Shown here piece by piece: positions 21,690 through 45,328 of a stretch of 64,000 nucleotides of DNA. The notes below the pieces were generated by a model. It had not been told where the DNA came from and made no database searches. It saw only the letters and a list, made by a program, of their open reading frames with translations. The translations under genes were made by a program, and so were the position numbers. Every line of letters starts with the position of its first letter. The first letter of the stretch is position 1. The DNA is from Antennarius striatus (taxonomy: Eukaryota; Chordata; Actinopteri; Lophiiformes; Antennariidae). The stretch lies in contig NC_090779.1 in the NCBI RefSeq assembly GCF_040054535.1, positions 16,861,001 through 16,925,000 of the forward strand. Direction: 5' to 3'.

Positions 21690-23291
21690 ATGACCCTGCA
21701 ATCATTAACTCCAGTCAACTGTGCAAGTCTTCTACAACCCGGCTGCTCTCTGCTACAGCTGGATGGTGAAGTTCTCCTGTTTGGCCAGAAAGGTTGGCCT
21801 AAACGTTCATGTCCAACAGGAGTGTTTGGGGTTCAGTTCAAACAGGGTGACATGAAGCTGAGGGCCATCTCTTTTTCGAATGATTCATTTTATCTTCCTC
21901 CATTACGTTGTCCAGCTGTTTGCCGCCTCGACCCATATGATGGGTTTCCAGAGAGTTATGTCATCCATGGTGGGCGAACCCCAAATAATGAAATCTCATC
22001 AAGCCTGTATGTGCTGACAACGGATAGTCGAGGATGTAATCGTAAACTGACCTTGTGCTGCAAAGAAAAAGAACTGGTTGGAGAAGTACCAGGGCCCCGA
22101 TATGGTCATACACTGAGTATTGTTCAAAGCCACGGCAAGACCGCTTACGTTTTATTTGGGGGAAGATCCTACTTGCCAACAGGAGAACGAACCACAGAAA
22201 CCTGGAATAAAGTCTTTGACTGTCCACCTCAGGTGTTCCTGTTTGACTTAGAATTTGGTTGTTCCTCTGCGCATATATTACCAGAACTCAGCCATGGACA
22301 GTCCTTCCATTTGGCCTTCGCTAGAGCAGACTGTGTCTACTTTCTCGGAGGTCATTCACTTTCCTCAGACTCTCGTCCCCCTCGACTCTTTTGTCTGCAT
22401 GTTGAGCTTCTACAGGGCAGTCCTTTGATCTCATGTGAGTCTCTGAACACTGGTATGTCTATTTCTAGTGCCATTATCACTCGTACAGGTCCTACACACA
22501 GATATATCATCTTAGGTGGATATAAATTAGACTCTCAGAAGAGGCTGGAGTGCAGCACTGTTACACTAGATGAGAAAGGAATCCATATTGACCACTTGGA
22601 ACCACCTACTTGGATACCGGATATCATTCATAGTCGCACTTGGTTTGGTGGCAGTGCTGGGGAAGAAAGCATCCTACTTGGTGTACCTACTGAGGGGAGG
22701 TCATCTCAAACAGATACGCATTACTTTTACCAGGTGAGCTTCCAGAGAGAGGGAGAAAATAAAGAGGTGGATGGAAGCCAGGGCTGTATCCAGGAGTCCA
22801 ATGATTACGATAACTCCACTCCCCTTGAAGATTCTGAAGAGCTCTACTTTGGTCGTGAGCCACATGAGTTGGAGGACAGTAATGATGGAGAAAAGGATAC
22901 TTACAATGAAGAGGATGAGGAAGATGAATCACAAACCAGCTACTGGACCAAATGCTGCTTGGGGTGTCAGGTGGACCCCAACATATGGCAGCCATACTAT
23001 TCCTCAGAGCTCCTCCGTCCAGCCATGATCTTCTGCTCCAGAGGAGAAGAAGGACACTGGGTCCATGCACAGTGCATGGAACTGTCAGAGAACCTGCTGG
23101 TCAAACTATCTCAAGGAAACAAGAAGTACTTCTGCCTAAATCATGGAGGGCTTCCTTACCAGGAGATGACACCACCTCGACGGGTCATGTCTCTTAAGCG
23201 TACCACCATGAAAGTCAGGCACAGGAAAACTCTTCCAACAATTAAGATGTCTCCAGCCAAAAAACACTTTTTCAGGAGACTTTTTGATTGA
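21690..23291 (+). CDS. rag2: recombination-activating protein 2 (Rag2), intact
   Basis: The protein has 533 residues in a single uninterrupted exon, close to the usual vertebrate length (about 527-530). Rag2 is the regulatory partner of Rag1 in the nuclear V(D)J recombinase of developing lymphocytes. Residues 1 to about 350 show kelch-type blades (HGGRT, FGGRS, LGGHS and LGGYK motifs), which form a six-bladed propeller that binds Rag1. An acidic hinge follows (about 375-418, rich in E and D). A PHD finger begins at C422/C423 and includes W457, the position equivalent to the mammalian Trp that reads H3K4me3, then HAQC and the final FCLNH zinc ligands. A basic tail ends the protein. The start is the first ATG after the splice acceptor. 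It is convergent with rag1, with 2.7 kb between the stop codons. No damage is seen. Confidence 0.98.
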   Translation: MTLQSLTPVNCASLLQPGCSLLQLDGEVLLFGQKGWPKRSCPTGVFGVQFKQGDMKLRAISFSNDSFYLPPLRCPAVCRLDPYDGFPESYVIHGGRTPNNEISSSLYVLTTDSRGCNRKLTLCCKEKELVGEVPGPRYGHTLSIVQSHGKTAYVLFGGRSYLPTGERTTETWNKVFDCPPQVFLFDLEFGCSSAHILPELSHGQSFHLAFARADCVYFLGGHSLSSDSRPPRLFCLHVELLQGSPLISCESLNTGMSISSAIITRTGPTHRYIILGGYKLDSQKRLECSTVTLDEKGIHIDHLEPPTWIPDIIHSRTWFGGSAGEESILLGVPTEGRSSQTDTHYFYQVSFQREGENKEVDGSQGCIQESNDYDNSTPLEDSEELYFGREPHELEDSNDGEKDTYNEEDEEDESQTSYWTKCCLGCQVDPNIWQPYYSSELLRPAMIFCSRGEEGHWVHAQCMELSENLLVKLSQGNKKYFCLNHGGLPYQEMTPPRRVMSLKRTTMKVRHRKTLPTIKMSPAKKHFFRRLFD

Positions 23292-26013: not shown

Positions 26014-29000
26014 TCAAACATCTTTATTTTCCATAGGTACATCTTCATCTTGGTTCTCTATTGGGTCGATGGTGGCCTGCAGAGCTTTAACAGAGTCTTT
26101 GTGAGCTTCCATAAATTTCTGTAGGTATTTGGAAGTGTAGAGCCAGTGGTGTTTTAACACGTCCTCTAATTCAAAGGTCTTTGACTGACGTGCATTCATC
26201 TTCCGGAAACGCCTGAAGAGTTTGTTTGCTGACTCATTCCCTTCACTGGCCCAAGCCCCTATGGATCCATCTCTGTCTATGATTTCAGGCACATGAGCCA
26301 AAGTCTTGTGCAAGTAATTGGTTATCTTCCCATTGTACCTATATTTGAACTTAGAGGAGAGGACCTCTGCAAAGCTCTGGGAGTTGAAGCTGTATCGGCA
26401 CAGCTGGTCAGGGCACTCTTTGGCTGGGCAGGTGGCGCGCCACACGGGCTTCATCTGAATGTAGAGTCTCATTAGTTCCCTAAGGGCCTCCCTTCTCTCC
26501 TCTGAGGGCACCAGCTCACACACCACCTCCAAAGCCTCCAGGGTCATTAGCCTGCGGGCATAGTTCCCATTCATCCTCATTACTGGTTTAAGCTTCATCT
26601 TCTTTCTCAGCTGTTTATCTAGGGCTGCCCTCCAGCTACGCCTCTCATCCCGGCTGGGATTGACCTTTTGGTACACCTCCCCAATCTCATCTTGGAATAT
26701 TTTGTAGAACTCAGTGGCATTGCCAATGTCACAGTGTAATGCATCCATCGTGGGATGGGTCTCCATGAAGGGCTTGGCAGAGACCCCTTTGACTCTATCT
26801 CGCAACTCCTCTACAGACTCAGAAAATGGATTGGTTCTCCAAATTTCATAACACTCAAGATTCTCTTCATGACTGCGGGTGATACAATGTAACACCATGT
26901 TTTCAGAGGCCTCTGCACGACTGGCATCACAGAGGGTGCAAATGTAGGCAGACCCAGAGGCCTCAAGGCCTTCCATCTCACGAACCATCTTCTCATCATA
27001 TCCCGTGCCCCTAAAATGAAAGCTGAAGGATCGTGGAAGTCCACCAATGGATAGGATTAATCTGCTCTCTTTCATTGCATTACGCTCTGCAATTATAGGA
27101 TGCAGGATTGCTGTGAGTGTCTCATGGTCTGATTCATCCACAAACATCAGGCAAAGGGGCTTACAGGACAGTTCTGAATTTGGCTTTGGTTCTGTGAAGA
27201 TGGTGACCTCTTCCTCCTTGCTGTCTTTTCTGAAAGACACAGACATGACGGTGAAAGAGAAACGCACAGCCTTCTCAGGGACAGCCGGTCCTCCGCCATG
27301 TTTTTCACTGACATCACCCATACCATCACAGGACTCTTTGATCATGACAGTAAAGTGGCAAGTGCTGTCTTCCATTCCATTCTCTCTCAGTCCCTCTATG
27401 ATGTCCTCCTCCAGATCCTTTAATGCTGATACCAGTGCCACATCATAGCGAAACCGACGAGTGATGGTGTCAACTGGGGACTCATCCACTGAGGAATCCC
27501 ATCCAGAGAGACCATTAATAATGCCAACACTGCAAGATGTTGACACATTCTTGAGAGCTGGCTGCCATTCAAACTGGTGAAAGCCAGGGAGAAGCTCTTT
27601 TTCTACAGCTCGCAGGGCGTGTAAGGGCTGAAAAATCTGGCGTCCACTGGTGGCTTTGACAGTTCGGTACATCTTATGGTACTGGCTGCAGCTAAGGAAA
27701 GTGTTGACCCGAATGGCCAGGCACACAGCAGGATGCAACCCAGATCCTCTGCCTGCAGAAAAAGAGAAAACAATGGAGACTTTCAATGAAAGAAATAGAA
27801 GATGCAAAAAAATAAATAAGTAAAAACGATGAAAAGGGATGAGAATTATTTAATACTAAACTGTCTTAAGGCCCATTCCCAGTGCCGCAAAAAAAAAGCT
27901 GCGATGTCTAACACTTTCTCATTTGATATCACACATTTAGACCAAGCAGAGAGAAACACAAAATTAACACCCTAATATGAATGTATCATTGTCAAAAACC
28001 CACAAGCCCATGATTACAAAATCCAATATTTCCTAATTTCAAAATGTTATAAGAGGGCAGAGGGTGAATCAGTGAAGCTGGAAAAAGTGATGTATTGGTT
28101 GCAGATGAAAACAGACACCAGCTGGCTTCTATTCCCCAGAGTGGAGGATGGTGCTGTCTGTGTAATTTGCAGATACAAGAGCTGCTGATGTTGTTTTGAT
28201 TCTAACAGTCCATTCAACAGAGTTGTTGTTGTGCATTAAAGGGATTGTGAGACAGGCAAACAGACTGAGAGAGAACAGGAGAGAGAAAAAAGAGGGTTTA
28301 GTGTGAATGGTGGCTCAATAAAAAGAAGTGGACAATAAGTAAATGCTTTCTTGCCAAAATCACAAAAAACAAAAACTTTCTTTTGAACTTTACAACTCAT
28401 TCTTATTTAGGAGATGACTGTATTCCTCACAGCTAAGTGGAAAAATTGATGAGTAAATACAATCATAATTTTAATTTGTTTGCGTCCTTCTGTCTTTGTT
28501 TTGGAGGGTTATTTTAATTGAACAAAAAAACCTCATAATAGTCTGTTACCTTGCATCATTGCTTCAAGCTCATCTGCCAGCCGGTGTTCATTCCTGGATC
28601 TCAGAGCAAGTAGAAACAAAGTCATGCACACAGACTTGAAGTCGCCACCTTCCCTTTTGTCTGCAAACATCTTCACGTGGTCCTTCAAATCCCTCAATCG
28701 TTGCTTCTGGGCACGACGGGTTAAGGATAGCAAGTGCTGACGGGGTCTTCCCCCTTTATTGATAAGGAAGTACTTGTCAGTTTCTGAAGACTGCTTGTTT
28801 GTATTCTGTCCGTGTTGCTCATGATCTAGACAATGAGTTTTAAATAATTCTAGCCTTATCTGCTTGCCACAGCCACTTCTGGGGCAGAGTAGAGGTAGGG
28901 ATTGTAGGGTGTACAAAAAGGTTTCGACAGGTGAGGTGAGATTATCAGGAGTACAGTGCAAGTTGCAGGCAGGGCAATGGGGACCTACAACACAGAAATA

Positions 29001-30070
29001 TTTTGTAATGCAGCTGCAGCAGAAGAGGTGCCCACAAGGAGACTGAACTGGATCCGAGAGTAGGTGGCTACACACAATGCAGGTGAAGGAAAAAAGGTAG
29101 TCTTTAGGGAGCTTCTTGGAGATCAGCTTGGTACTAAGATGGTCTTCACAGCAATATGATATGTCCCTTACCCACTGTTCATTCTGGTAGCTAGATTTCC
29201 TTGAAATCCTGAGCATAGGATGTTCCAGAGCCCTCCTTTCACTGGCAGCAGGATTGTCACCATGGTCATACCGAATTATTTTTGTCAAACTCTGGACACT
29301 GGGAATGGCTTTCCGCCTCTTCCTCCCAGTCCGCTGAAATGATGATTTCCTTGGAAAGCAAAGATGGCAGAGGGACGAATGAGGTTTCCAGTCAGGGACT
29401 CTTGTTCTGGTAAAGCTGCAGATGCCACCACCCCGTATGGCAGCCATCCAGCATCGATGGCAGAAGGAAAGAGGGTGAACAGATTCTGTGTCTTGGGTTA
29501 CTTCCACTTTGAAAACTTTGAGGATTACCTCTGGCCAGCATGTAACCTTGCAGCCCATTTTACGCAGAGTAACTTTGCTTGCCTCATCTAGATTCCCATG
29601 AACATCATGCACTGGTCCTTTGACTTTTCTAAATGCCACTCCACAGAGACGACACAAGCACCTTCATAGAGGAAAACCAATCAATTAGTTAGAAAGAAGC
29701 ACAAATAATGACCTGAATATAGAGTAGCAACTTTTAGTCACCTGAGGTGGTTCATATGGTTTTCCATTTCCTCTAGTTTCATATCTACCCTGCGGCCTGG
29801 ACCCTCCACATTTTCCTTGCTTTTTCCTCCAAGGCACAATTTCATAATACTCCCTTGACCCACACCATTATCTAAATCTATATTTAGAGCTGGAGGATGT
29901 GAAATCCCAAAAAAGGCTTCTTTCTCAGTCTGTGTCTCAATGGGCAGAGGCGCCTTCTCCATAGACCTCACCCTAAACAGTTTAAACTTCCACTGGGAGT
30001 ACTTAGAGTAGGGATGGTGCAACTCTGCCGGCATGGAGGATCTAGGGTCATCAAGGCTCTCCTCCTCCAT
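26014..30070 (-). CDS. rag1: recombination-activating protein 1 (Rag1), three coding exons
   Basis: Rag1 is the catalytic subunit of the V(D)J recombinase (nuclear DNA nicking and hairpin formation at recombination signals). Coding exons run 30070-29742, 29661-28550 and 27752-26014. The introns (80 and 797 bp) have GT-AG ends. The joined frame totals 3180 nt, 1059 residues. Exon 1 opens MEEESLDD and contains the conserved [19 protein letters not shown] block. Exon 2 has Cys pairs (CRLCG, FCHRC, LCHLC), a C3HC4 RING from about C304 and the GGRPR nonamer-binding motif at about 413. Exon 3 is the rest of the core. The active-site acids are D623 (SCDGMGD), D733 (GTGYDE) and E987 (GNESANKL), matching mouse D600/D708/E962. 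The start ATG at 30070 was chosen because upstream frame text is only microsatellite. The second junction falls within MQG|RGSG, giving the expected family sequence. No breaks are seen. Confidence 0.97.
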
Positions 30071-30092
30071 GATGAGACTTAGACCATTCACC

Positions 30093-30094
30093 CT
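30093..30094 (-). promoter_or_regulatory. candidate splice acceptor in rag1 5' UTR
   Basis: On the minus strand the pentanucleotide pyrimidine tract runs into CTCCCAAG followed by GGTGAATGG, with the rag1 ATG 22 nt further on. A short UTR stub just ahead of the first coding exon mirrors the rag2 layout, and a non-coding first exon is known for rag1 in vertebrates. CAAG is an acceptable but not ideal acceptor, and no donor was located. Confidence 0.4.
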
Positions 30095-30097
30095 TGG

Positions 30098-30180
30098 GAG
30101 GAGAGGAGAGGAGAGGAGAGGAGAGGAGAGGAGAGGAGAGGAGAGGAGAGGAGAGGAGAGGAGAGGAGAGGAGAGGAGAG
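30098..30180 (-). repeat. (CTCTC)n pentanucleotide microsatellite upstream of rag1
   Basis: About 16 near-perfect units read TCTCC/CTCTC on the rag1 strand, ending about 28 nt upstream of the start codon. The tract is open in all frames, so it makes false N-terminal extensions (SSPLL repeats). No in-frame ATG lies upstream, so these should not be annotated as coding. Confidence 0.95.
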
Positions 30181-31688
30181 ACAACGAGATTTGAATGTGA
30201 CCAATAACAATAGTATGAAAAAATATATATATTGGTTAAAGAGAAAACAGTTGAAGGTCCAAGTGTCAGATGTATCAAGTTCCATCTCAGCATTGAGCCC
30301 ATGACAGTCTAACAGCTTAACTTGATTCCTGTTGAATTTATACACTGAGTATCCTGAAATCCCACTGAGCAGAGAATAGTAAGCTCTGACCTAGAGCGCC
30401 GTATTATACCATAAGTGGCATTTAGATCTTCTGTAAAATGCATGAGACAAGCATTGGGGGATCGATACAGCACAAAAATCCTGATTTCTCTCAGCTCCAA
30501 TCCCATTGCTCAGGGGAGCCATTGAGACATTTCTTTGACACAGCGAGTTTGCTAAATGGGCAACCTTATACCTAAAAGGCTGTCAATCATTTATATTAGT
30601 CATCATCTTGGCTGGAGACAGAATTGGAGTCCCTTAAGCCTATGACTGGCATTATAAATTCAGGGAGGGGATAAAAATCAGAGACAGAGGAAACTTATTT
30701 TCATAATACACAGATATTGAACAAAAATGAGGAGAAAGAAAACATCATATTGAAGAAAGATCATAAAGAATAGTTCTAAGCACAAATAAGAACGAAGAGT
30801 CATATTCCTCATGATATAGCGCAGGTAAGATCAATGATACCTCTGCTGTGGCACACCTTATTTCATCTGCTCCCATGTTTTCTGGTTCCACTGCAGTTCA
30901 TTCAGACAATAAAGCGGTTAAACAATCCTACCATTGCACACCCATAGTGTGCACACATCCTCCGGCTATCCATTTTTCAGTCTTCTCACTACGTTTTCTC
31001 CCTGGGAGGTTTGAATCTGACAGTCTCCTTCATTTCCTTGCTCTCTGTGTTCTTCACATGCTGAACTCTCCTTTGAGACAAACAGCTAAGCATTTGTGCA
31101 TGTGTATCAGCTGTGCTCTTACCTTATTTTGAGTCTCAGCTGGCGTCAGCTCCCCTGGGGGTCTCCTTTGCATGAGAGCACAAGGGAAGCCCTGGAGCCA
31201 GGCACTAAACACTACCTATGCTATATGTGTCTATGTCAGTCAAAAATTGGACTGTTGGCAGGGGTTGTGACTCCACTGTGGTATCGATGTCTGTCTCCTT
31301 GTGTCTTGTATTTATATCCTTCTTTCAGTTGGATCCCAACAGTCACCTCCTGACACCTGATACTGGCGGCTGATTTTTTTTTTAAAAAACAAGGTCAGCT
31401 CCGAAGCACAGTTGCAGACATATTTGCAGACATATTGTATATGTGTTCAGAATTCAACAACATGAAGGCAACTCTCTACCATATCACCATGATCCTCAGC
31501 TTGAAGCACTTTTATTTCACCTTTATCTCTCCTCTGTCATATCCATCTGCTGGCTCACCCCATCCAGGTGGCCTCTCTCTGACAGAAAGACAGATAATGT
31601 TTATGAAACTGAGAAAAAGGCTACTAAAGTACAATGGATCATAATAAAAGAACTTTCTCATCTCACAGACAAATATTTTCAGATATGA
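30181..31688. other. rag1 5' flanking region
   Basis: No coding exon is seen. This region probably contains the rag1 promoter, the non-coding first exon and the 5'-UTR intron, but I could not place a TATA box or initiator convincingly. Confidence 0.4.
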
Positions 31689-32055: not shown

Positions 32056-34286
32056 TTTGTGTAGAGGCAATAGCAATAGGGAAAAGTGTCAGTATGTGGA
32101 AGTGTGTGAACAGGCAACATGAAATATGAAAAAGACCTTAGGAAAGTGAGTCATCATTACAGAAGGGAAGAAAAAAATTGCCATGATAAATGTGTTGTTA
32201 TTGTCATGCTAATTACTTTGTCACCGTGTCACTTCACATCATCTCTCAAGAATTCAAGTGGTGGTTGATGTGACAATGGTGACTGTTTGAACCACAGTGT
32301 TCATCTGGCAATTACCATTTTGATAAGTAGGCATCAAATATGCTTTTTATCTGCAGCTGTCTTTGCAACATCAGAATGTTTAATCTATTTCTCCAAATGC
32401 TGTCGCTCTGTCGCCAGAATAAGTTTTAATTAGGCAGCATCATTTGATGGCGTGTCTCAGTAGGTATGGGGAGTATTTTCCCAAGATCATTCTTGTTTGT
32501 AATTATCCAGGGGGGTTATCAGGTGTATTCACCACAGGAGCCTGTTGCTGTTGCTCTGTATTTGCCCGCCAAGTCATTAGATACACAGTCAGTGGGCTCC
32601 AAATTACAATTGGGCCCTGTCCTCTCCTGTCAGCTTAACAGGGAGGCAAGATAAGTGTTGGCCCATATTGTTTTCATATGGTCATTGTGACCTGAAAAGG
32701 CAGTTTTTTGATTGATATTAACCAGAAATATTGATTAGAAATAATAGCAAATGTGCTCTAACCAAATCAATCAGATATAGATGGGAGATTTTAAGTATTC
32801 AACGCTTGATGCATTACTTATAACACACAAAGCAAATGATGGATTGTTGTAAGATGTTCCAAGCCTATTTATAGCTAATATTTAGATTTATGATAGCCAG
32901 CTAGTCAGATGTTTCTCAGACAAGCCAAGGTCCGTGTCAGACAGAGAAGAAGCTCCAGATGTCTGCCTGACAAACAAGCAGTGACTTCCTGAGACCCTCA
33001 TCTCTCAGCACCTGCTAATTGACTTGTTATTGATCAACTCAAAGACAGGCTGATTTATGGGAAAGAGGACTTGTGGAGACAGCCACCTGGTATGAAGCAG
33101 TGTGTTATGAATGTGAGGAGCAGATCCTTAGGGACAAAGGTTGTTGTTCAGGAGGATATACGGGAGTTTGCAATGCACCGGTGAACTGACACTTTGCACA
33201 AGGAGGGGGTGGTTTTTCTAATGTGATGAATCCACACAACATCAGTGAGCGATGTTTGCATAGACGAATGTGTTGCAGGTGTGTGCAGCAAGAGGGATTA
33301 GTGGAAACAGCAAAGACAGTACATGTGTGGAGACATTTGGGAGGAGGTTTGCATCTGTTTTCATACGTGCTGATGTGTAAGTGACACAAGGGAAACAGAC
33401 CAAACATATATAAAGCAGCTCTACTAATCCATCAGAATTACAGTATTATGTTTGTCTCTGTGTTAACACAGACATACAGACTGAGAAAAGGAATGAGAGG
33501 GAAAGTGCAAGAGGTTACAGACAGATGGAGAATGCAGTGATCTTCTGTAAAAGAGTAGCACAGGATAACAGGCTTAGTTCTGAGTGGACAACACAAATGG
33601 GCTTAAGACTGATTGTGAGCTGTGACAAGGAATTTGGCGGAAGAGATCAAGTTTTCAAGGTCGAACTATGTAAGCCAGAGTTACAGAAAAGACCCTCTGA
33701 CAGCTCAGATCATGTGGCAGCTCAAGAGAAAGTGTCACTTGCCCAAATGGCCGATGAATAAGTCCCGTAGGAGCATCAATGACTTCCTAATAGGAAATTA
33801 GAATCAGAATTGTTCACATTTGAACAGACCAAATAAAGTTTTATGTTGAAAATATCAAGATGAATTTTGGAATTCTATTCAGGGTAAAGAGGGCATTATG
33901 CACTTGCTTTTCCTGAATGTTTATGCAGTATATTGAGCATTCAGTATGGTAATTCTTAATTGCATTTTTCTGACGCATTCAGCAACTTAAGCCTCATCCA
34001 GTCAGTGAGTCGTCTCCCGTTGTCCACCTCGTTTTCTATCCCTCATCCACAGACATGATTTGATAGATTAATGCTCAAAGATGTAGGCGTCAGCACAGAG
34101 CTATTTGTCAAAACTACCTGCCAGAACAAACCTCTTACCCTACTACTCAAATCTGCCCTCATTCATCTGTCCTGCCTCTCTCTCTCACGTATTGTTTCCC
34201 ATCGTCTTTCCCTTCTTCTCTCACCCTCACCTCAGGTTTTGTCAATAATCAATTAGGTGTTATTCCAATGAAGTGATTAATTGTTT
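32056..34286. other. gene-free stretch
   Basis: No exon is recognised. The small plus-strand frame at 33525-33761 (78 codons) has no familiar motif and no supporting context. Confidence 0.4.
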
Positions 34287-34386
<100 letters not shown>

Positions 34387-34550
34387 CTCTCCCTCTTTCA
34401 CTTTATCTCCTCCCATGAGAGAAGATCACACAGTGACTATCATGAGTTCAGCTGAGTTGAGTGATGCTGTCTTGAGACACTGTGTGACCCTTTATGACTT
34501 GACTGCTTTTGGTTTGTGACTCATATTGACTGATGGGGTTTAAAAAGCAG

Positions 34551-34552
<2 letters not shown>

Positions 34553-34646
<94 letters not shown>
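34553..34646 (+). repeat. (CA)n microsatellite
   Basis: About 45 CA units with a single AACAC interruption near 34609. Confidence 0.95.
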
Positions 34647-34647
<1 letters not shown>

Positions 34648-34895
34648 CATAAGTCAATCAAATGCTGAGAATGCAGTGAATATTGTGCTGCATTTTAGAG
34701 TATGGATCTTTAAAAAAGTCAGACCTGTTTGAGCAGACAATCCAAACGGATGTCTATCCAGTCAGAGTAAACAACATGAAATTAAAGCCTAATCCCAATT
34801 CAGGAGCTCTCGAGTACAGTGGAGAATCAAGTGTAACCCAGGTGAAGAAACAATCTATTTGGCGTTTCTAGTCGTCTCCTAGCGACCGTCGGGGC

Positions 34896-34905
34896 GTCAC
34901 ATGAC
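34896..34905. promoter_or_regulatory. palindromic E-box in LTR
   Basis: GTCACATGAC is a perfect 10-bp palindrome containing TCACATGA, the core bound by MITF/TFE-type bHLH-ZIP factors. It lies 21 bp upstream of the TATA-like box and recurs at 42435-42444 in the 3' LTR. Function is inferred. Confidence 0.4.
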
Positions 34906-34926
34906 CCCACGCAGCCTATCGGTGCC

Positions 34927-34933
34927 CATAAAA
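34927..34933 (+). promoter_or_regulatory. TATA-like box of LTR promoter
   Basis: CATAAAA in a GC-rich setting, downstream of the E-box. A start about 30 bp further (near 34958) would place the U3/R boundary early in the LTR. This is a weak assignment from sequence alone. Confidence 0.35.
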
Positions 34934-35107
34934 CGGCGTCCCAGGAAGTGAGTCGGGTGATGCGAGAGGGGCCGTGAGGAGACGGACGCCGAATTCATAG
35001 TTTTCATTTCACGGTGACAACACTTGAAAGGTTTTTGACGTATTGCCTGAATGTCAACTTGTGAGAGCCAACTGCAGCGCGACTACATTCGTGAAACGGC
35101 GGAACCG

Positions 35108-35369
35108 GTGAGCTGCGCTAAGTTAGCTTTTAGGCTGTATGCATACAATGGGGTTAGCGAGCGTAACTATGCCCGTTTCTCCGAATGTGTGTATTTAAGT
35201 ATCTTTGGTTATACACTTTAAAAAAGAACAAAGTAAATATTGTACAGTATTGTGATGCAAACTGCATTATTTATTGATTTTGATTAATTGATTGATATAT
35301 ATATATACTGTGTATATATATATTTGGTGTACACCGAGCTGAAACTGGTCCTGTTCCTTTTTTATTCAG
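35108..35369 (+). other. possible intron within the LTR leader
   Basis: The donor ACCG|GTGAGCT at 35108 and an acceptor with a strong pyrimidine run (CCTTTTTTATTCAG|G) ending at 35369 would define a 262-nt intron downstream of the putative promoter. An identical pair sits at 42647-42908. No transcript evidence is available here. Confidence 0.35.
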
Positions 35370-35890
35370 GCCAGGTTTGGATGGCGAGCTAAGAAAAGAA
35401 AGAACTTGGAAAGCAAAATCCTTGTGAACTGAATTTTGCGGTCTGTCCCACACTCACATTCACACATTCCCTTCCCTCACTTTGCACACTACCCCTCTGG
35501 AAATCCTGCTCGAGTCAACACTGGTACAACCCCGTGTTGTGGACAACCTGAACTTTTGTTGTGCGTAATGCGCACATGGACTGAGACCCAATTAAGTGGG
35601 CTCATTGGACTTCAGATTTGAATGTATTACTTGAATGTATGCATTTGACGGCATTGATTTTGTTTTGTTTTCCTTGAGGCTAATTTAAGTTAGAAATGTC
35701 ATTTGTTTTTCCTTTGTGAGAATAGCCATTCTTTGTGTTCTACAATTTTTATTTTTAAATATATGGTACCAAATTCAAACCTCTGTCTCAGTCTCTTCCT
35801 CTCTCCACTCCTAGAGCCGAACCACATCTTCTGAGAAAGCCCAATTTGATATTGTTAATTTGTTAATATACACATATGTTACATAATTTG

Positions 35891-35909
35891 TGGCGAGCCA
35901 GCCAGGAGT
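35891..35909 (+). other. primer-binding site, tRNA-Arg
   Basis: TGGCGAGCCAGCCAGGAGT starts 7 nt after the 5' LTR. It is complementary to CCA plus the 3' end of vertebrate tRNA-Arg (ACG-type), whose acceptor/T-arm end I recall as ACTCCTGGCTGGCTCG. The 19-nt match is seen against that recalled sequence. Confidence 0.8.
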
Positions 35910-35968
35910 GGAGTAGATAGAGCTATTGAATGCTATTTTTGAGGCGGGTTCTTGGTGTACATTAAAAC

Positions 35969-37654
35969 ATGGAAACATTTGAGAAACGTGGCATTAAAAT
36001 CCCCAATTCAGTCTTGATTCAGGATGCGAAAAAAACTGAAACCGATGATGAAGTTGTCGACTTTTTGAAACAGTACGGTTCAATTTCTAAAGCAGACATT
36101 ATAGATGAGCCTGAGTCAGTTTTCCATCATTGTATTGTAGTTGAGTACAGTTCAGGTGCACCGTTAGTTGCACTGCGCAAACTTTTACCTTATACTTACA
36201 TTTGCAAAAGCGATAAGGTCGTCTATGAAATTTTGGACTTATCTGCCGTGTTTGCTGACGAGGTAGGTAAAATGCAGACTCAGAACTACCTAGTTGAACT
36301 ACAAAAAGTCGCCAAATTAACGGGGCAGGATTTCGCTGTGGTACTAAATGGTGTGATGTCTCTGCTTGGCCAGACTGTAACTGAGCTCCACCCCACTGCT
36401 GGAGATGTTGAAGTTACTTTTGAGGACAGGCAGAGAGAGCTGCCAAGTACTCCCCTTGGTATTGGATTGCCTTCTGCATTACCCTCGGCTGTTGACGTGG
36501 GCCATCCAGCTGTTGCAGCCTTGAGCCCAAGTGGAACCCAGTTAAAGGTAGAACCAGATCCCACTGTTCAGGATCCACCAAGACTGCCAGCTGTGACGCA
36601 TCACGATTTAAACCCACCTGAGATTCAACGCTATGTGGTTGAGCACATAGTAAAAAATGAAGAAAGCACAGGTCACTATTCAGCTCACAGAATCCGAGCC
36701 TTTTCTGGAAGATCCCCACGACCTCCGAACGAATCAGACTATGATACGTGGCGTTCCAGCATAGAACTATTACTAAAAGATCCCGCGGTGTCTGACCTTC
36801 AGCGCTCCCGCAAAATCTTTGAGAGCTTGCTGTCACCGGCTGCTGACATGGTTAAGCACTTGCAACCAGATACGTCACCCACCATCTATCTGCAGACTCT
36901 CGATTCAGCTTATGGTACTGCTCAAGATGGAGAAGAGCTTTATGCCAAATTTTTAGACACCTTTCAAGACGCTGGGGAGAAACCCTCCACCTATCTTCAA
37001 CGTCTTCAGGTTCTTTTAAACTCAGTGGTCAAGCGTGGGGGAGTAATAAACAAAGACATTGAACGACACCTGTTGACCCAATTCTGTCGAGGTTGTTGGG
37101 ATAACTCTCTGATTACTGAATTACAGCTGAAGCAAAGAAAACACAATCCACCAACATTTGCAGAGTTCTTGCTACGACTACGAACTGAGGAAGACCGTGA
37201 AGCTGCAAAGGCTATCCGAATGAAGCAACATCTCGGCTCAGCAAGACCCAAAGTTTCAGCCCATGTGCAGTATGTCTCTACAGATGGGGCCGAGAAGAAA
37301 GAAATTGCTGCTCTCACCAAAGTCACGCAGCAGCTCGCACAGCAACTGACAGACATCCAGAAACAGCTTGCATCATTTACTGCCAGCCAGTCAAGTGTCA
37401 CTAATCCTGCTGCTTTCAAGTCCATGTCTGGTGGTACGCTGCAGGAGAATCAGAGGATTGGTAAGCAAACAAAGACCCTGCCTTCGGTACTCAAGCCTGG
37501 TTACTGTTATAGGTGTGGTGAAGATGGCCATATAAAGACACATTGTGAAAATCCTCCAAACTCTGCTCTTGTGGCCGCCAAGAAAAAACAGTTTGCAGAA
37601 AGACAAGCGAAATGGCAAAAATCCAACCCCCAGTTTAAACAATCTTTAAACTAA
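35969..37654 (+). CDS. gag: Gag polyprotein of the LTR retrotransposon, PNMA-like
   Basis: The 561-residue Gag forms the particle that packages the element's RNA. Residues 1 to about 95 form an RRM-like domain as in PNMA proteins. A linker rich in Pro and acidic residues follows. The capsid region (about 240-430) opens with RAFSG and has DTW and a CRG/LQ...FLLRLRTEE pattern closely following the PNMA capsid. A Gln-rich coiled coil lies at about 447-480. A single CCHC zinc knuckle has ligands C513, C516, H521 and C526 (CX2CX4HX4C). The start is the first ATG after the primer-binding site. The TAA stop directly follows a slippery heptamer that should feed ribosomes into pol. The frame is intact. 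The PNMA relation is by recalled family sequence; no search was run. Confidence 0.92.
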   Translation: METFEKRGIKIPNSVLIQDAKKTETDDEVVDFLKQYGSISKADIIDEPESVFHHCIVVEYSSGAPLVALRKLLPYTYICKSDKVVYEILDLSAVFADEVGKMQTQNYLVELQKVAKLTGQDFAVVLNGVMSLLGQTVTELHPTAGDVEVTFEDRQRELPSTPLGIGLPSALPSAVDVGHPAVAALSPSGTQLKVEPDPTVQDPPRLPAVTHHDLNPPEIQRYVVEHIVKNEESTGHYSAHRIRAFSGRSPRPPNESDYDTWRSSIELLLKDPAVSDLQRSRKIFESLLSPAADMVKHLQPDTSPTIYLQTLDSAYGTAQDGEELYAKFLDTFQDAGEKPSTYLQRLQVLLNSVVKRGGVINKDIERHLLTQFCRGCWDNSLITELQLKQRKHNPPTFAEFLLRLRTEEDREAAKAIRMKQHLGSARPKVSAHVQYVSTDGAEKKEIAALTKVTQQLAQQLTDIQKQLASFTASQSSVTNPAAFKSMSGGTLQENQRIGKQTKTLPSVLKPGYCYRCGEDGHIKTHCENPPNSALVAAKKKQFAERQAKWQKSNPQFKQSLN

Positions 37655-37687
37655 ATCCAGTTCCTGTTGCGGGGCGAACCGGAACTG
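37645..37687 (+). promoter_or_regulatory. -1 ribosomal frameshift signal between gag and pol
   Basis: The slippery heptamer T TTA AAC (37645-37651) is in the gag frame and the gag stop TAA is the next codon. After a 6-nt spacer, CAGTTCC (37658-37664) pairs perfectly with GGAACTG (37681-37687). The 16-nt loop can add a GTT/AAC extension. Slipping back one base enters the pol frame, which is open from 37639 on. This is the canonical X XXY YYZ layout. Confidence 0.85.
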
Positions 37688-40600
37688 TTGTGGACCCAAA
37701 TTGTCCCAACAAAAAGAAAATTATGCAATGTAGAGAAATGACTCAGACAGCACCCGCCATCACATCTCAACTACCCAACGGATTAATTGGTTCCCGCTGT
37801 ACAGCCAAAGTCAAGATCGCTGAGGAAGAATGTAGTTGCCTCCTAGACACAGGGTCGCAAGTTACAACCATCCCCGTTTCATTCTATAACCAGCACTTTG
37901 CCGATCAGCCTGTGAAACCTCTGGGTGACATCCTACAAGTGGAAGGAGCAGCAGGACAAGCCGTCCCCTATATTGGATATGTGGAAATGACAATAACATT
38001 TCCTAGGGAGTTCCTAGGTGCAGATTTTGATATGGCCACACTTGCACTTGTAGTTCCTGATGTAAGATCTGATTTTCAGTCCCCAGTATTAATCGGCATG
38101 AACACTTTGGAACCACTGTACAGGCACCATAGGGAGAGTGACGTTGCAGAGTTCCAGCCTTCTGCTCATGGGTACAAAGCTGTGCTTAAACTTTTGCAGA
38201 TGCGCCACCGACAACATCACGCTGACATTGATGGAGTCGTGAAAATAGCCACTAAGTCTCCGGTCCTCATCCCTGCTGGACACACCACCGTCGTGGAAGG
38301 ATCCGTTCACTCCAGTACAACAGGTCTTGGGCAATGGGCGCTTGTGGAGCATCCCGCTTCACCCCTGCCAGGCGGGCTGTGTGTCAAAAACTCTCTTATT
38401 GCGCTTTCACGTAAATCACACATGAAGAGAATTCCGGTTGTTCTTACTAATGACTCAGATCATGACGTGACTATCCCACCTCTCTGTGCCATTGCCAAAC
38501 TTGCCATATCCCCCCAGATTCTGTCCCACCAAGTGTCCTCGAACCAGTTACCAATTGAGACATTGAATACTTTGAAGCTGGATTTTGGAGAATCACCAAT
38601 TCCTCCAGAGTGGAAGGAGAGGATTATTAATAAATTCAGCGAGATTCCTGAAGTCTTTTCACACCACGACTTGGATTTCGGATGCACTGATAAGGTGAAA
38701 CACCGGATCAAACTGCATGACGAAACCCCTTTCAAGCATCGGGCCAGACCGATTCACCCTCAAGATGTTGAGGCTGTGCGCCAACATCTACGTGATCTGC
38801 TAGACGCGGGTGTCATTAGAGAGTCCGATTCACCATTCTCATCACCTATTGTCGTGGTCCGCAAGAAGAATGGGGACATTCGGTTGTGCATCGATTACCG
38901 CAAGTTGAATTTACAGACTATAAAAGATGCCTATGCTTTACCAAATCTGGAAGAATCTTTTTCAGCCTTGACTGGTTCCCGGTGGTTTAGTGTGCTGGAC
39001 CTAAAATCCGGCTACTATCAGATCGAGATGGATGAGGCTGATAAAGCAAAGACAGCTTTTGTAACGCCAGTTGGGTTCTGGGAGTTTAATAGAATGCCCC
39101 AAGGGGTTACGAATGCTCCAAGTACATTTCAGCGGGTAATGGAGAAGTGCATGGGGGATCTCCATTTAAAAGAAGTGCTTGTTTTCATTGACGATCTTAT
39201 TGTATTTTCAAGCTCACTTGAAGAGCATGAGCAGAGGCTGCTGCGAGTGCTCAATCGTTTAAAAGAATATGGGTTGAAACTCTCTCCAGAGAAGTGCAAG
39301 TTCTGTCAGACATCCGTGCGATATCTTGGACATATTGTTTCGGAGAGAGGAGTTGAAACTGATCCCGATAAGATTCTTGCTCTTAAATCCTGGCCGGTTC
39401 CACAGACCCTGAAAGAGCTCAAGTCATTTTTAGGATTTGCTGGGTATTACCGTAGATTCATCAAAGGGTATGCTGCCATTGCTAAACCACTAAATGATCT
39501 TACGCGTGGCTATGTGTCTATGCCGAAGTCCCAGTCCAAACACCATTCAGCCAAACTTCAAGATGCAAAGCAGCCCTTTGGAGAGCGATGGTCATCTGTC
39601 TGCCAAAATGCATTTGAAACACTGATAGCAAAGCTGACAAGCTCTCCGGTCCTTGGCTTTGCTGATCCCAAGCTACCTTATATCCTCCATACTGATGCCA
39701 GCACCACTGGACTTGGAGCTGCATTGTATCAAAAGCAGGAAGGTCAGCTGAGAGTAATTGCATACGCCAGCCGTGGCTTATCGCCAAGCGAATCCAGATA
39801 CCCCGCACACAAGCTTGAATTCCTTGCTCTGAAGTGGAGTGTGACAGAGAAACTGCACGACTACCTGTATGGGGCCAGCTTTGTAGTGGTAACTGACAAC
39901 AATCCCCTAACTTACCTGTTAACATCAGCAAAGTTAGATGCTGCCAGCCACAGGTGGCTCGCTGCCCTGTCCACCTATACCTTCAAACTGCAGTATAGAT
40001 CTGGAAAGTTGAACTCTGACGCTGATGGTTTATCCCGCCGTCCTCAGAACCAATTCACTGATGTTTCATCACAGAAAGATTGGGATTTGATCAACAAATT
40101 CTCCCTGAATGAACCAAGTGAAATAGAGGAAGTGGACCCTGATGTTGTGTCTGCTATTTGTCATCGCTGCCTTGTCTCCAACCAGCCCAGCAGTTCAGTA
40201 GAGAGTCCTATCACTTTGGTTGAGTCCTTGAGCCTGTCAGCTGAAGCCATTCCTGATTGTTATTCCAGTGAAACCAACCATGGGCTACCAGTTGTTCCTT
40301 CCTTGTCACATCTGGACCTCAAAGAACAGCAACATGCTGATCCAGCTATAAGAGAGGTGATTCACCAGATGAAGACTGGAGAAAAAGTGCCTCCCACTGC
40401 AAAGCATGAGCTTCCAGACCTAGCTCTGTTATTGAGGGAGCTGAATCGCCTCGAGCTGCACGAGGACATCTTGTACCGGCGGAGGTGGGATGGGGAACGA
40501 GCCTCGTTCCAGCTGGTTCTGCCCAAGGAGCTGAGATCGGTTGTTCTAACAAGCCTGCATGATGACATGGGTCATATGGGCATTGAGCGCACTTTAGACC

Positions 40601-42333
40601 TTGTACGCTCCAGATTTTTCTGGCCTCACATGGCAGCTGATATAGAATGCAAAATCAAGACTTGTAGCCGATGTGTGAGACGCAAAGCACTACCTGAGAG
40701 ATCCGCACCTCTTGTTAATATTAAAACCACACGTCCTCTTGAGTTGGTCTGCATGGACTATCTTTCACTTGAACCAGACCAGAGCAACACAAAGGACATC
40801 CTTGTACTAACTGACCATTTTACAAAATATTCTGTTGCAATACCCACACCAAACCAAAAAGCCAGGACAGTGGCAAAGTGTTTGTGGGAGAATTTCATAG
40901 TGTGCTATGGAATACCTGAACGTCTCCACACCGATCAAGGACCAGACTTCGAGTCCAAGTTAATCAAAGAACTTTGCCAATTCACAGGGATGGAAAAGAC
41001 ACGGACAACCCCCTATCATCCTAGGGGAAACCCAGTTGAAAGGTTCAACAGGACGCTACTCGGCATGCTTGGAACTTTGGAACCAAAGCAGAAGACCAGA
41101 TGGAAAGAGTATGTGAAGCCTCTAGTGCATGCGTACAATTGCACTCGGAATGACGTCACTGGCTTTACGCCTTATGAATTAATGTTTGGTCGTTCACCAA
41201 GGCTTCCAGTAGATCTCGCCTTTGGTCTGCCTCTGCAAAGAAATCAGTCCATTTCTCATTCCCAATATGTTGAACGTCTCCGATCTCGTCTTGAAGAAAG
41301 TTTTCAGATAGCATCCAAGAATGCTGCAAAAGCAGGTGAGAGAAACAAAATGCGCTTTGACAAACAAGTTACACCCTCAAAGTTGGACGAAGGTGATAGA
41401 GTTCTTGTTCGCAATGTCAGGCTGCGCGGGAAGCACAAGCTTGAAGACAAATGGGAACAAGATATCTACATTGTCTTGAAACGGGCTGGAGAGTTGCCTG
41501 TGTACACTGTGCGCCCTGAAACAAAGGATGGGCCAATTCGTACATTGCACCGCGATTTACTTCTTCCATGTCCATTCCAAGCCGACATGAATGATTCTAA
41601 TCTTTTGCCAGACACTCCACCCCGTCGTGCGAAAACTCGAAGCCAGACTTTGGCACTTGAAGATCCCAACGAAAATCTGGATGAAGATGAAGAATGGGAG
41701 TCACCTCAACCTCATATTCCTCCAACTTCTTTTGCTTTCAGGAGTGAACATTCAGCTGTAAGTTCACTGCCTCAAGCTGACTCTACAAATGTGTCCTTGG
41801 CCAAAACGCATGAGAATCCTGTTGATGCTGAACCTTCTTCTCTGCGAACCAACTTGCCTGGAAATGAAGAACCCATCTTACCTGCAAATGAAGGAACCAA
41901 TTTATCTGCACATGAAATAAACCACTTACCTGGAGATGGGGATTCCTCTGCTGATCCTGAAGCTTCTGAACCTGTAGCTGATGACTCACCTGACCGAGTT
42001 CAATTTACCTGTGCTCCAGACAGCTTACCTGGAGAACCTGAGCTTCCTGGTCAAGCAGAGACATCACCCAACCTCAATGAGCCATTACTCATCCCAGCTG
42101 AGACCCTTGTTACAGCACAAAATACATCTGACTCTGTAGTTGAGTCTGATACGGTTGTCCGACGTTCAAGTCGTCAGCGCCAACTACCAAATCGCTTGCA
42201 GTACTCAGTGTTGGGTAACCCTCTAATTTCTGTTGTGCAGACTCTTTTCCATGGGTTAGTTGACATGTATAGTGGAGCAATTGGTACCTCTGCAGCAAAC
42301 AATCATGTGCACCCTCCTGTTTTTGAAGTTTAG
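37651..42333 (+). CDS. pol: Pol polyprotein (protease, RT, RNase H, integrase) of the LTR retrotransposon
   Basis: Pol copies the RNA to DNA and integrates it. The frame is open from 37639. No ATG occurs before 37723, so expression by frameshift from gag is expected. Numbering from 37690, the protease has DTGS at D53. RT has D437 and FIDD (D501/D502). RNase H has D669 in HTDAST. Integrase has an HHCC zinc site (H957, H962, C992, C995) and catalytic D1023, D1082 and E1117 (a D,D-35-E spacing), then a GPY/F-like module ending RTLHRDLLLP. A further tail of about 250 residues, acidic and Pro/Ser-rich, with LPG/LPA-type repeats, is unusually long. There is no chromodomain. No stop or frameshift interrupts the frame; all catalytic residues are present. 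Confidence 0.95.
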   Translation, partial: LNPVPVAGRTGTVVDPNCPNKKKIMQCREMTQTAPAITSQLPNGLIGSRCTAKVKIAEEECSCLLDTGSQVTTIPVSFYNQHFADQPVKPLGDILQVEGAAGQAVPYIGYVEMTITFPREFLGADFDMATLALVVPDVRSDFQSPVLIGMNTLEPLYRHHRESDVAEFQPSAHGYKAVLKLLQMRHRQHHADIDGVVKIATKSPVLIPAGHTTVVEGSVHSSTTGLGQWALVEHPASPLPGGLCVKNSLIALSRKSHMKRIPVVLTNDSDHDVTIPPLCAIAKLAISPQILSHQVSSNQLPIETLNTLKLDFGESPIPPEWKERIINKFSEIPEVFSHHDLDFGCTDKVKHRIKLHDETPFKHRARPIHPQDVEAVRQHLRDLLDAGVIRESDSPFSSPIVVVRKKNGDIRLCIDYRKLNLQTIKDAYALPNLEESFSALTGSRWFSVLDLKSGYYQIEMDEADKAKTAFVTPVGFWEFNRMPQGVTNAPSTFQRVMEKCMGDLHLKEVLVFIDDLIVFSSSLEEHEQRLLRVLNRLKEYGLKLSPEKCKFCQTSVRYLGHIVSERGVETDPDKILALKSWPVPQTLKELKSFLGFAGYYRRFIKGYAAIAKPLNDLTRGYVSMPKSQSKHHSAKLQDAKQPFGERWSSVCQNAFETLIAKLTSSPVLGFADPKLPYILHTDASTTGLGAALYQKQEGQLRVIAYASRGLSPSESRYPAHKLEFLALKWSVTEKLHDYLYGASFVVVTDNNPLTYLLTSAKLDAASHRWLAALSTYTFKLQYRSGKLNSDADGLSRRPQNQFTDVSSQKDWDLINKFSLNEPSEIEEVDPDVVSAICHRCLVSNQPSSSVESPITLVESLSLSAEAIPDCYSSETNHGLPVVPSLSHLDLKEQQHADPAIREVIHQMKTGEKVPPTAKHELPDLALLLRELNRLELHEDILYRRRWDGERASFQLVLPKELRSVVLTSLHDDMGHMGIERTLDLVRSRFFWPHMAADIECKIKTCSRCVRRKALPERSAPLVNIKTTRPLELVCMDYLSLEPDQSNTKDILVLTDHFTKYSVAIPTPNQKARTVAKCLWENFIVCYGIPERLHTDQGPDFESKLIKELCQFTGMEKTRTTPYHPRGNPVERFNRTLLGMLGTLEPKQKTRWKEYVKPLVHAYNCTRNDVTGFTPYELMFGRSPRLPVDLAFGLPLQRNQSISHSQYVERLRSRLEESFQIASKNAAKAGERNKMRFDKQVTPSKLDEGDRVLVRNVRLRGKHKLEDKWEQDIYIVLKRAGELPVYTVRPETKDGPIRTLHRDLLLPCPFQADMNDSNLLPDTPPRRAKTRSQTLALEDPNENLDEDEEWESPQPHIPPTSFAFRSEHSAVSSLPQADSTNVSLAKTHENPVDAEPSSLRTNLPGNEEPILPANEGTNLSAHEINHLPGDGDSSADPEASEPVADDSPDRVQFTCAPDSLPGEPELPGQAETSPNLNEPLLIPAETLVTAQNTSDSVVESDTVVRRSSRQRQLPNRLQYSVLGNPLISVVQTLFHGLVDMYSGAIGTSAANNHVHPPVFEV

Positions 42334-42357
42334 CATGCATCAGGAGTTGCATGATCT

Positions 42358-42370
42358 AAAGGGGGGAGGG
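42358..42370 (+). other. polypurine tract
   Basis: AAAGGGGGGAGGG abuts the 3' LTR start, as required for plus-strand priming. Confidence 0.9.
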
Positions 42371-43422
42371 TGTAACCCAGGTGAAGAAACAATCTATTTG
42401 GCGTTTCTAGTCGTCTCCTAGCGACCGTCGGGGCGTCACATGACCCCACGCAGCCTATCGGTGCCCATAAAACGGCGTCCCAGGAAGTGAGTCGGGTGAT
42501 GCGAGAGGGGCCGTGAGGAGACGGACGCCGAATTCATAGTTTTCATTTCACGGTGACAACACTTGAAAGGTTTTTGACGTATTGCCTGAATGTCAACTTG
42601 TGAGAGCCAACTGCAGCGCGACTACATTCGTGAAACGGCGGAACCGGTGAGCTGCGCTAAGTTAGCTTTTAGGCTGTATGCATACAATGGGGTTAGCGAG
42701 CGTAACTATGCCCGTTTCTCCGAATGTGTGTATTTAAGTATCTTTGGTTATACACTTTAAAAAAGAACAAAGTAAATATTGTACAGTATTGTGATGCAAA
42801 CTGCATTATTTATTGATTTTGATTAATTGATTGATATATATATATACTGTGTATATATATATTTGGTGTACACCGAGCTGAAACTGGTCCTGTTCCTTTT
42901 TTATTCAGGCCAGGTTTGGATGGCGAGCTAAGAAAAGAAAGAACTTGGAAAGCAAAATCCTTGTGAACTGAATTTTGCGGTCTGTCCCACACTCACATTC
43001 ACACATTCCCTTCCCTCACTTTGCACACTACCCCTCTGGAAATCCTGCTCGAGTCAACACTGGTACAACCCCGTGTTGTGGACAACCTGAACTTTTGTTG
43101 TGCGTAATGCGCACATGGACTGAGACCCAATTAAGTGGGCTCATTGGACTTCAGATTTGAATGTATTACTTGAATGTATGCATTTGACGGCATTGATTTT
43201 GTTTTGTTTTCCTTGAGGCTAATTTAAGTTAGAAATGTCATTTGTTTTTCCTTTGTGAGAATAGCCATTCTTTGTGTTCTACAATTTTTATTTTTAAATA
43301 TATGGTACCAAATTCAAACCTCTGTCTCAGTCTCTTCCTCTCTCCACTCCTAGAGCCGAACCACATCTTCTGAGAAAGCCCAATTTGATATTGTTAATTT
43401 GTTAATATACACATATGTTACA
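42371..43422 (+). repeat. 3' LTR
   Basis: The LTR is 1052 bp and reads the same as the 5' LTR (offset 7539) with no difference found. It ends GTTACA just before the CAAG target duplication. Confidence 0.95.
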
Positions 43423-45328
43423 CAAGACCAGTATCTTCAATCAGAATAACAATGCTATTTAATTTTGTGTTAATTAAATGCAGATTTCCCTGATTGAGGA
43501 GCAGGCCCATTGATGATGGGGGACCTACAGTCATATAAACACCCGCTCTCTTGATTTGTATTGTGTTGTGTTTAATCGTGTATTAGTCATCTTTTCCCAT
43601 ACTGCCTGGTGCTGGTTTACACAGAATGTCAGCTGAAGGATAATACTCGCAAACAACTCCTAAAGACTTCAAACATTCAGGATCTTGAATGGTGGTATTT
43701 CTCAGGCAGTTGTTATTAACACATCAATAAGTGCCTAACATGCACACAGTTCTCAAATTAAAATAATGATAATGCATTAATACTAAATACCGCCATTTCT
43801 CTCTCCACTAATCATTCTTTTTCTTTCTCGTTCTTGCTCCCTCTCTCAGTCCCCTCCATCAATGTAATGAGCAAATTGTAGTCCCTAGGGAAAGATGTTA
43901 GAGAGAGTTTTGTCCCATTATGTGTCAAGGACTGTGAAAAGAGCAGTGCTGTTGTCTGTCAACTCTAACCCCTGACTGTTCATGGTCTTTGCTTCCCACC
44001 AAACACAGAAATGTATTTTCCCACATGTAGGACTGCATATTATATCCACGTCTTCCAGAGTCCATTATATAAAGTGCCAGAACACCAGTGCCCTTTTCTG
44101 TTCTATCTCTGCCAGAGTTCAGACAAGAAACAATGGACCCAGTAACATACAGAGATTTAGGGCTGATTTAGAGTGACTTATAGAGTATAGTAATTATAGG
44201 AGTTGAAGGAGGGAGTGTGAGGGATGCTCTGGATAGGTAGGGGCTTGGTGAGTGAGATTATTGTCATTTGGCAGCCGGTGCAGTTGGAGAGAGAAATAAT
44301 TACAGGAGCCAGACCCTGGGTGGTGAAGCATTTATCAACCAGTCATCGCAATGATTCACACAATCCAGAGGGAAGACGGGTTTTTTTACTGCCTCATTGG
44401 CATGGGAGCAGACATATCTAGTAATTGTTTGAGAAAACTAGTTTGGAGAGACCCATCTTTTTTGAGAATTCATAGTGTCATAAGTGGTCTGTGGATTGGA
44501 CTACTATGAGAATGAATCAAGCAGTTCAGACTCAGTCAGGGGCAGATGGTCTCTTTTCACTGCAACAGAACACAGACATGCCCCAGGAAGAGACTGGTCC
44601 CTGTTGTTGGAGAGGAGAGTAACACAGAATACATAAGGTTTACAAATAAATACCCATCCACCTGCTTTGGCGAGTGCTTTGGGACCAGAAAGATCGGAAT
44701 GCGTTGCAACAGTTTTGCATTTGTCGGTCTGCCTGTACAAGCAATTGAAAGAGTTTTTGCATAAGCAAATGGAAAGGGGAACTGAATAGGGAATAACGAA
44801 AGAGCCCAGGGAGGACTGTGATGGCCTTCTCATAATAAGAATGATAAAACTGCTATTCGTCTATTCATACTCCCCTTACTCTTCCTTTACCAACTTTTCC
44901 TTCCGATTCCTGTGGGATACGTGTCATTCTTATATACACAGGTTTTCATCCCTTTGCTTTTTTGTGAGCGTCCTGCTGGAGAGTCAGAGAAAGGAGAGGG
45001 AGAGAGATGGGGACTGTTTATTCAGTCAGATGGTCCAACGTGTTTGGAATAAATTTGTGCCAAAGAGGAAGTTGTCTACATAATGTGAACTGGCATTGGT
45101 AAGTAAGTGAATGGTGCTGTGTCCAAAACCTTTATCTCAATCACTCTTTTAATTTACTCTATGTTGAAGAATAAATTCAGCATTTTGGACATTTATAAAT
45201 CATTGTCTATGATAATAAACTTTTGGCATAATGGTAATGCAAATCATTTGAGGTAAAGCGAAATGTTGGTATATGATATTTCGTTCAATCATTACTTCTC
45301 ATAAAGACAAGACTTTCCCTAATTGTCT

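Follow-up and report, generated by a model that had tools for sequence, protein, structure and literature searches.

The stretch of DNA analysed here (the window) comprises 64,000 nucleotides of the Antennarius striatus genome (NC_090779.1, positions 16,861,001 to 16,925,000) and contains a complete Ty3/gypsy (Metaviridae) element on its forward strand, at positions 34832-43422. An initial annotation, made from the sequence alone, had described it as an intact, apparently recent element from the lineage in which the PNMA genes originated. Our analysis points, with a probability of roughly 85%, to an autonomous-looking and very recently inserted retrotransposon of bony fish that has a PNMA-type capsid and belongs to a clade of related families (A-D), with a further family of the same genome (E) apparently lying nearer to PNMA. 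The element has the following parts (positions in the window; +, forward strand):

34828-34831, no strand: target-site duplication CAAG, left copy (right partner at 43423-43426)
34832-35883, +: 5' long terminal repeat (LTR), 1052 bp, TGTAAC...GTTACA, identical to the 3' LTR
35891-35909, +: primer-binding site, complement of the tRNA-Arg(ACG) 3' end (16 nt) plus CCA
35969-37654, +: gag open reading frame, 561 aa, open
36002-36238, +: Gag N-terminal domain, weakly similar to an RNA recognition motif (RRM), approximate borders (RRM_1 E 0.035, below cut-off)
36701-37168, +: PNMA-type capsid domain PF14893 (88.1 bits; PNMA2 match E 9.6e-18)
37505-37546, +: CCHC zinc knuckle (motif; zf-CCHC E 0.013, below cut-off)
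37639-42333, +: pol open frame, -1 relative to gag
37840-38103, +: protease motifs LLDTGS ... VLIGMN (motifs; Pfam aspartyl protease E 0.015, below cut-off)
38857-39339, +: reverse transcriptase (RT) PF00078 (Pfam)
39664-39978, +: RNase H PF17917 (Pfam)
40522-41022, +: integrase, H2C2 zinc domain and core (Pfam and motifs)
42358-42370, +: polypurine tract AAAGGGGGGAGGG
42371-43422, +: 3' LTR, identical to the 5' LTR
43423-43426, no strand: target-site duplication CAAG, right copy

The features that define a Ty3/gypsy element, namely LTRs, primer-binding site, polypurine tract and target-site duplication, are all present, and those reported in the initial annotation were borne out. Aligned base by base, the two LTRs, which it had given as equal in length and indistinguishable, show 0 differences over 1052 bp, and the CAAG duplication, the primer-binding site and the polypurine tract are in place. 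The primer-binding site starts 7 nt past the 5' LTR and is complementary to a 16-nt tRNA 3' end plus CCA. The host genome contains 17 occurrences of this 16-nt sequence; two lie within copies of the element, and all four that were sampled among the remaining 15 are tRNA-Arg(ACG) genes. A search of positions 34800-43450 against Rfam, at E-values up to 1, returned no match.

Both gag and pol are open, as annotated, with gag followed by pol in the order protease, RT, RNase H and integrase. They retain the CCHC motif of the zinc knuckle, the DTG of the protease, the FIDD of the RT, the D/E/D residues of RNase H, and the HHCC and D..D..E signatures of the integrase, with 34 residues separating the second D from the E. 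The RT, RNase H and integrase exceed their Pfam cut-offs; the protease and zinc knuckle fall below theirs, yet their motifs are present. The capsid domain scores 88.1 bits, against a cut-off of 25, placing the element among the PNMA-capsid metaviruses in the broad sense. Two parts of Pol have no Pfam match: positions 38104-38750, between protease and RT, which may encode a dUTPase-like or linker domain, and the roughly 300 residues by which Pol extends beyond the integrase at its C-terminus (41430-42333). In IMG/VR, no relatives were found of the window Gag or of a 966-aa piece of pol.

Further copies, whose existence the initial annotation had proposed to check, were found in the host assembly (548 Mb, 42 contigs). 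An LTR search, with 40 of 68 candidates scored, yielded at least 60 matching pieces, and LTRs were paired for seven full-length copies with Gag near-identical to the window Gag. Substitutions between the paired LTRs number 0/1052 in the window, 1/1051 in the C14 copy, 0/1049 and 7/1019 in two copies on chromosome 2 (C2), 3/791 and 4/791 in two C22 copies and 3/791 in a C1 copy. Four-bp duplications flank the window element (CAAG), the C14 copy (CAAT), the two C2 copies (TATG and TAAG, respectively) and the C22 copies (AAAG), and the C1 copy lies between CTGG and CTGT. Because both C22 copies share their flanks, they represent one insertion that was duplicated; they are inverted relative to each other and about 290 kb apart. 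The C1 and C22 copies carry a short LTR variant (L069-L074) of 791-792 bp that lacks LTR positions 278-537. Gag is open in six of the seven copies and the full 1564-aa pol frame is present in four, with both intact in three; one C22 copy with a full frame plus one stop was counted as broken. Beyond these, five further LTRs at 95% identity or more were inspected. Two of them, at C3:20524831 (AACA) and on C15 (CATA), have duplications and look solo, one has flanks of TACT and TACC (C3:29639152), one on C9 lacks a duplication, and one is followed by internal sequence (C3:850742). Older, diverged copies are also present, as LTR pieces at 78-93% identity. The right-hand flank of the window element (800 bp) maps to a single place in the assembly.

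With 0 changes in 1052 positions, the 95% bound on LTR divergence is 0.29%, corresponding to an insertion age below 0.14 million years at 1e-8 substitutions per site per year, as applied in PMC11117352, or to a bound of 0.48 million years at an assumed rate of 3e-9. The reading of the element as living or very recently active is well supported by its identical LTRs and by six further full-length copies at 0-7 LTR differences; present activity and particle formation are predicted from motifs and covariation. The LTRs of the first chromosome 2 copy are identical to each other but show 10 differences from those of the window element over 1049 sites, which suggests recent movement of two or more source variants.

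Gene conversion and assembly collapse do occur, and either could have made the LTRs of an older insertion look identical. Such an explanation is nevertheless quite improbable, given that the two LTRs of the chromosome 2 copy are likewise identical but represent a different sequence variant, that the LTRs of five more paired copies are 1-7 sites apart, and that the window element has intact reading frames and a perfect duplication. Even less credible, to the point of being negligible, is the idea that the sequence is not a mobile element but a host gene that arose by domestication. The PNMA capsid family does include domesticated genes, according to PMC11011659, but the complete LTRs, pol, primer-binding site, polypurine tract, dispersed copies and solo LTRs contradict this reading.

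A search of the genome for the PNMA capsid listed 63 matches, among which the window element's own family (A) is accompanied by four other PNMA-capsid families (B-E). Gag identity to the window is 98-99.8% within A and falls to about 50% in B, 42% in C, 35% in D and 30% in E. In the RT search, for which 110 of 4244 candidates were scored, the corresponding values among the matches listed are 82-83% for B, 75-76% for C, 71% for D and 59-61% for E, with one unassigned place at 63% and the next families at 56% or less. An RT tree built from the window and 12 of the 111 matches listed (13 rows) unites A-E in one clade with a support of 100/99, so that the window RT groups with those of the other PNMA-capsid elements of the genome.

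The junction between gag and pol shows hallmarks of -1 ribosomal frameshifting. All 19 copies with an open gag that were examined have pol in the -1 frame, and the overlap in the window element contains a slippery heptamer followed by potential structure:

37645-37651, +: slippery heptamer T TTA AAC, immediately preceding the gag stop
37658-37687, +: stem 1 of the proposed frameshift stimulator (37658-37664 with 37681-37687)
37671-37707, +: possible pseudoknot stem 2 (37671-37675 with 37703-37707), with conserved codons as an alternative cause

At the gag stop, families A, C and D have the heptamer T TTA AAC, and family B has G TTA AAC, the exceptions being L027 of family C (TTTAAAG) and the broken L046 of family D (TTTAATT). 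When the codons of gag were shuffled, 202 of 20000 trials had a heptamer among the six final codons. Perfect 7-bp stems with suitable spacing arose in 71 of 20000 shuffled sequences, and 58 of the 6275 positions along gag-pol have one. Stem 1 pairs at 7/7 positions in A and D and at 6/7 in B and C. Across these four diverged families, three of its seven pairs have changed on both sides in a compensatory manner, and 93.9% of cells are paired, as opposed to 18-53% when the stem is slid. Two of the three doubly changed pairs alter amino acids (Val, Thr, Ala) on both sides, with codons read by eye, so synonymous drift does not account for them. Stem 2 pairs at 5/5 positions in each of the families A-D, but represents weaker evidence, since conserved codons could explain its pairing. 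Several observations weigh against a structured junction. Its predicted folding is unremarkable (z -1.26; 18 of 200 shuffles are as good), two of five measures made for the stem fail against shuffles (116/500 and 500/500), and the evidence for the stem comes from four lineages. We nevertheless infer, from the motif and the covariation, that -1 ribosomal frameshifting takes place at this junction. In family E, gag and protease share one frame, and no such heptamer was found between knuckle and protease in any of four copies.

Taken together, the predicted replication cycle would involve a Gag protein that forms a capsid of the PNMA type and also carries a zinc knuckle and a possibly RNA-binding N-terminal domain. 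Pol, comprising protease, RT, RNase H and integrase, would be translated as part of a Gag-Pol fusion after a -1 shift at U UUA AAC, aided by the downstream stem or pseudoknot. Reverse transcription would be primed by tRNA-Arg(ACG), and integration would generate the 4-bp duplication.

The relationship of the element to the PNMA genes was addressed with a 21-row capsid tree that combined three PDB chains with 18 of the 63 places, one near-identical copy having been dropped. Families A-D and five related fragments form a clade (95/100) that excludes PNMA2, MOAP1 and E. By sequence, the window element is thus a member of one clade of PNMA-capsid metaviruses, and family E looks like another branch, nearer to the mammalian PNMA genes. 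Family E (L001-L004; G000 C7, C10, C5 and C7) combines a PNMA_N domain with a PNMA capsid. Its capsids are 43% and 35% identical to human PNMA2, compared with 27% for the window, and the path length to PNMA2 is also shorter for E. A match to PNMA2 extends over N-terminal domain and capsid in E (L003; 1.5e-36) and over the capsid alone in the window Gag (9.6e-18). Identity to the MOAP1 capsid is 38% and 36% for E and 31% for the window (87 columns).

Not all results favor a closer tie between PNMA and E. The gap in MOAP1 identity is small (36-38% for E, 30-34% for A-D, over about 87 columns), and the best tree joins E with A-D and leaves PNMA outside (49/97, unstarred), rather than joining PNMA to E. 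In the approximately unbiased (AU) test, a grouping of PNMA with E is not rejected (p-AU 0.49), but neither is one of PNMA with A-D (p-AU 0.25). A first AU test, which lacked three E-like fragments (L006-L008), rejected PNMA with the two E rows (p 0.0069); the value of 0.49 was obtained with these fragments included. With neither grouping rejected, the initial statement that the element belongs to the lineage from which PNMA arose is weakened, not refuted: the PNMA-type capsid itself stands, and what speaks against the descent is the exclusion of PNMA2 and MOAP1 from the A-D clade and the greater closeness to PNMA2 of E, which alone carries PNMA_N.

The N-terminal domain of Gag bears on the same question. 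The initial annotation had assigned to Gag an RRM-like N-terminus, a PNMA capsid and a zinc knuckle; the latter two held, and the first is detected only below threshold. RRM matches of the window reach E 0.054 in the whole Gag and 0.035 in the isolated domain, and neither query matches PNMA_N in Pfam. For the domains of the window, B, C, L034 and L035, an RRM-type model is the sole Pfam match (E 0.0014-0.18); four of the five domains of related loci show such a weak match and L031 shows none. That all these matches lie below the cut-off counts against an RRM assignment. The PNMA_N profile (PF20846) has four matches genome-wide, all in family E. In a profile comparison that left out family D, the A-C domain scored 0.2% against E plus PNMA2, like 20 column shuffles (0.0-0.3%), compared with 97.2% for E to PNMA2 and 99.8% for A+B to C+L034+L035 as positive controls. 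A single-sequence AlphaFold prediction of Gag residues 1-125 (mean predicted local distance difference test score 51.9) was too poor for use. Given the sub-threshold matches and the failed profile join, an RRM-like character of this domain is plausible, and it may bind RNA, but its identity with the RRM of PNMA is not supported.

These data make it unlikely that the window element represents the very lineage domesticated as PNMA, with an N-terminal domain that is a diverged PNMA_N. The window Gag does show the same order of N-terminal domain, PNMA capsid and CCHC knuckle as PNMA, and the AU test and the best tree leave room for this view. Moreover, as described in PMC5009743, mammalian PNMA3 uses -1 frameshifting with an H-type pseudoknot, seemingly like A-D and unlike the four E copies. 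Against it stand the A-D capsid clade, the closeness of E to PNMA2 in identity and path length, the restriction of PNMA_N to E and the two kinds of N-terminal domain. More tentatively than our preferred reading of an A-D element with E nearer to PNMA, A-D could be a distinct PNMA-capsid branch with its own RRM-like domain, strongly diverged or independently gained, that kept an ancestral -1 frameshift and pseudoknot, of which PNMA3 and PNMA5 would carry a relic and which E would have lost.

The element belongs to a kind that is already published. Henriques et al. (2024; PMC11011659) describe metaviruses of fish, reptiles and amphibians with an RNA-binding domain, capsid and nucleocapsid (RBD-CA-NC), report 217 RBD-like reading frames across seven genomes, including zebrafish and fugu, and consider the vertebrate elements active, with Gypsy-30_Ami as a proxy. 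They share with the window element an N-terminal putative RNA-binding domain, a PNMA-type capsid and a zinc knuckle, but the window domain is missed by the Pfam model PNMA_N, though perhaps not by the authors' own model; family E appears to fit their description better. Barthez3, from the Barthez lineage of teleost gypsy elements (8756 bp, LTR 1114 bp, pol 1563 aa, as given in PMC11117352), is similar in size to the window element (LTR 1052 bp, pol 1564 aa). The mammalian genes PNMA2, MOAP1/PNMA4 and PNMA3 are linked to it by capsid homology, and the frameshifting of PNMA3 resembles that proposed here. In contrast to the window element, PNMA3 and PNMA5 encode no Pol domain, according to PMC5009743, and the capsid of the window element is only 27% identical to human PNMA2. 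Among the listed titles and abstract openings (10 of 14 papers on PNMA with pseudoknots and gypsy elements, 8 of 13 on RAG with retrotransposon insertions), nothing concerned this junction or insertion.

The element inserted beside the RAG genes, both of which lie to its left. RAG2 occupies positions 21690-23291 on the forward strand, and RAG1, on the minus strand, has Pfam matches within 26017-27807 and 28536-29657. An upstream frame at 29738-30184 is presumably the RAG1 N-terminus; the start codon of this frame (ATG, 30070) and the element are 4762 bp apart and divergently oriented. A young element about 4.8 kb upstream of RAG1 might affect RAG1 expression. Long CT and CA microsatellites (34285-34650) lie just left of the insertion site.

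Collectively, our findings show that this well-assembled fish genome holds a relative of the PNMA capsid genes that is both intact and young, as well as a second one that seems to be closer to them. If A-D indeed form a distinct branch, a single fish genome would hold both branches, with family A recently mobile. Together, families A and E make it possible to test which branch of retrotransposons underwent domestication, whether the PNMA frameshift was inherited from a gag-pol junction, and what role the N-terminal domain plays in a mobile element.

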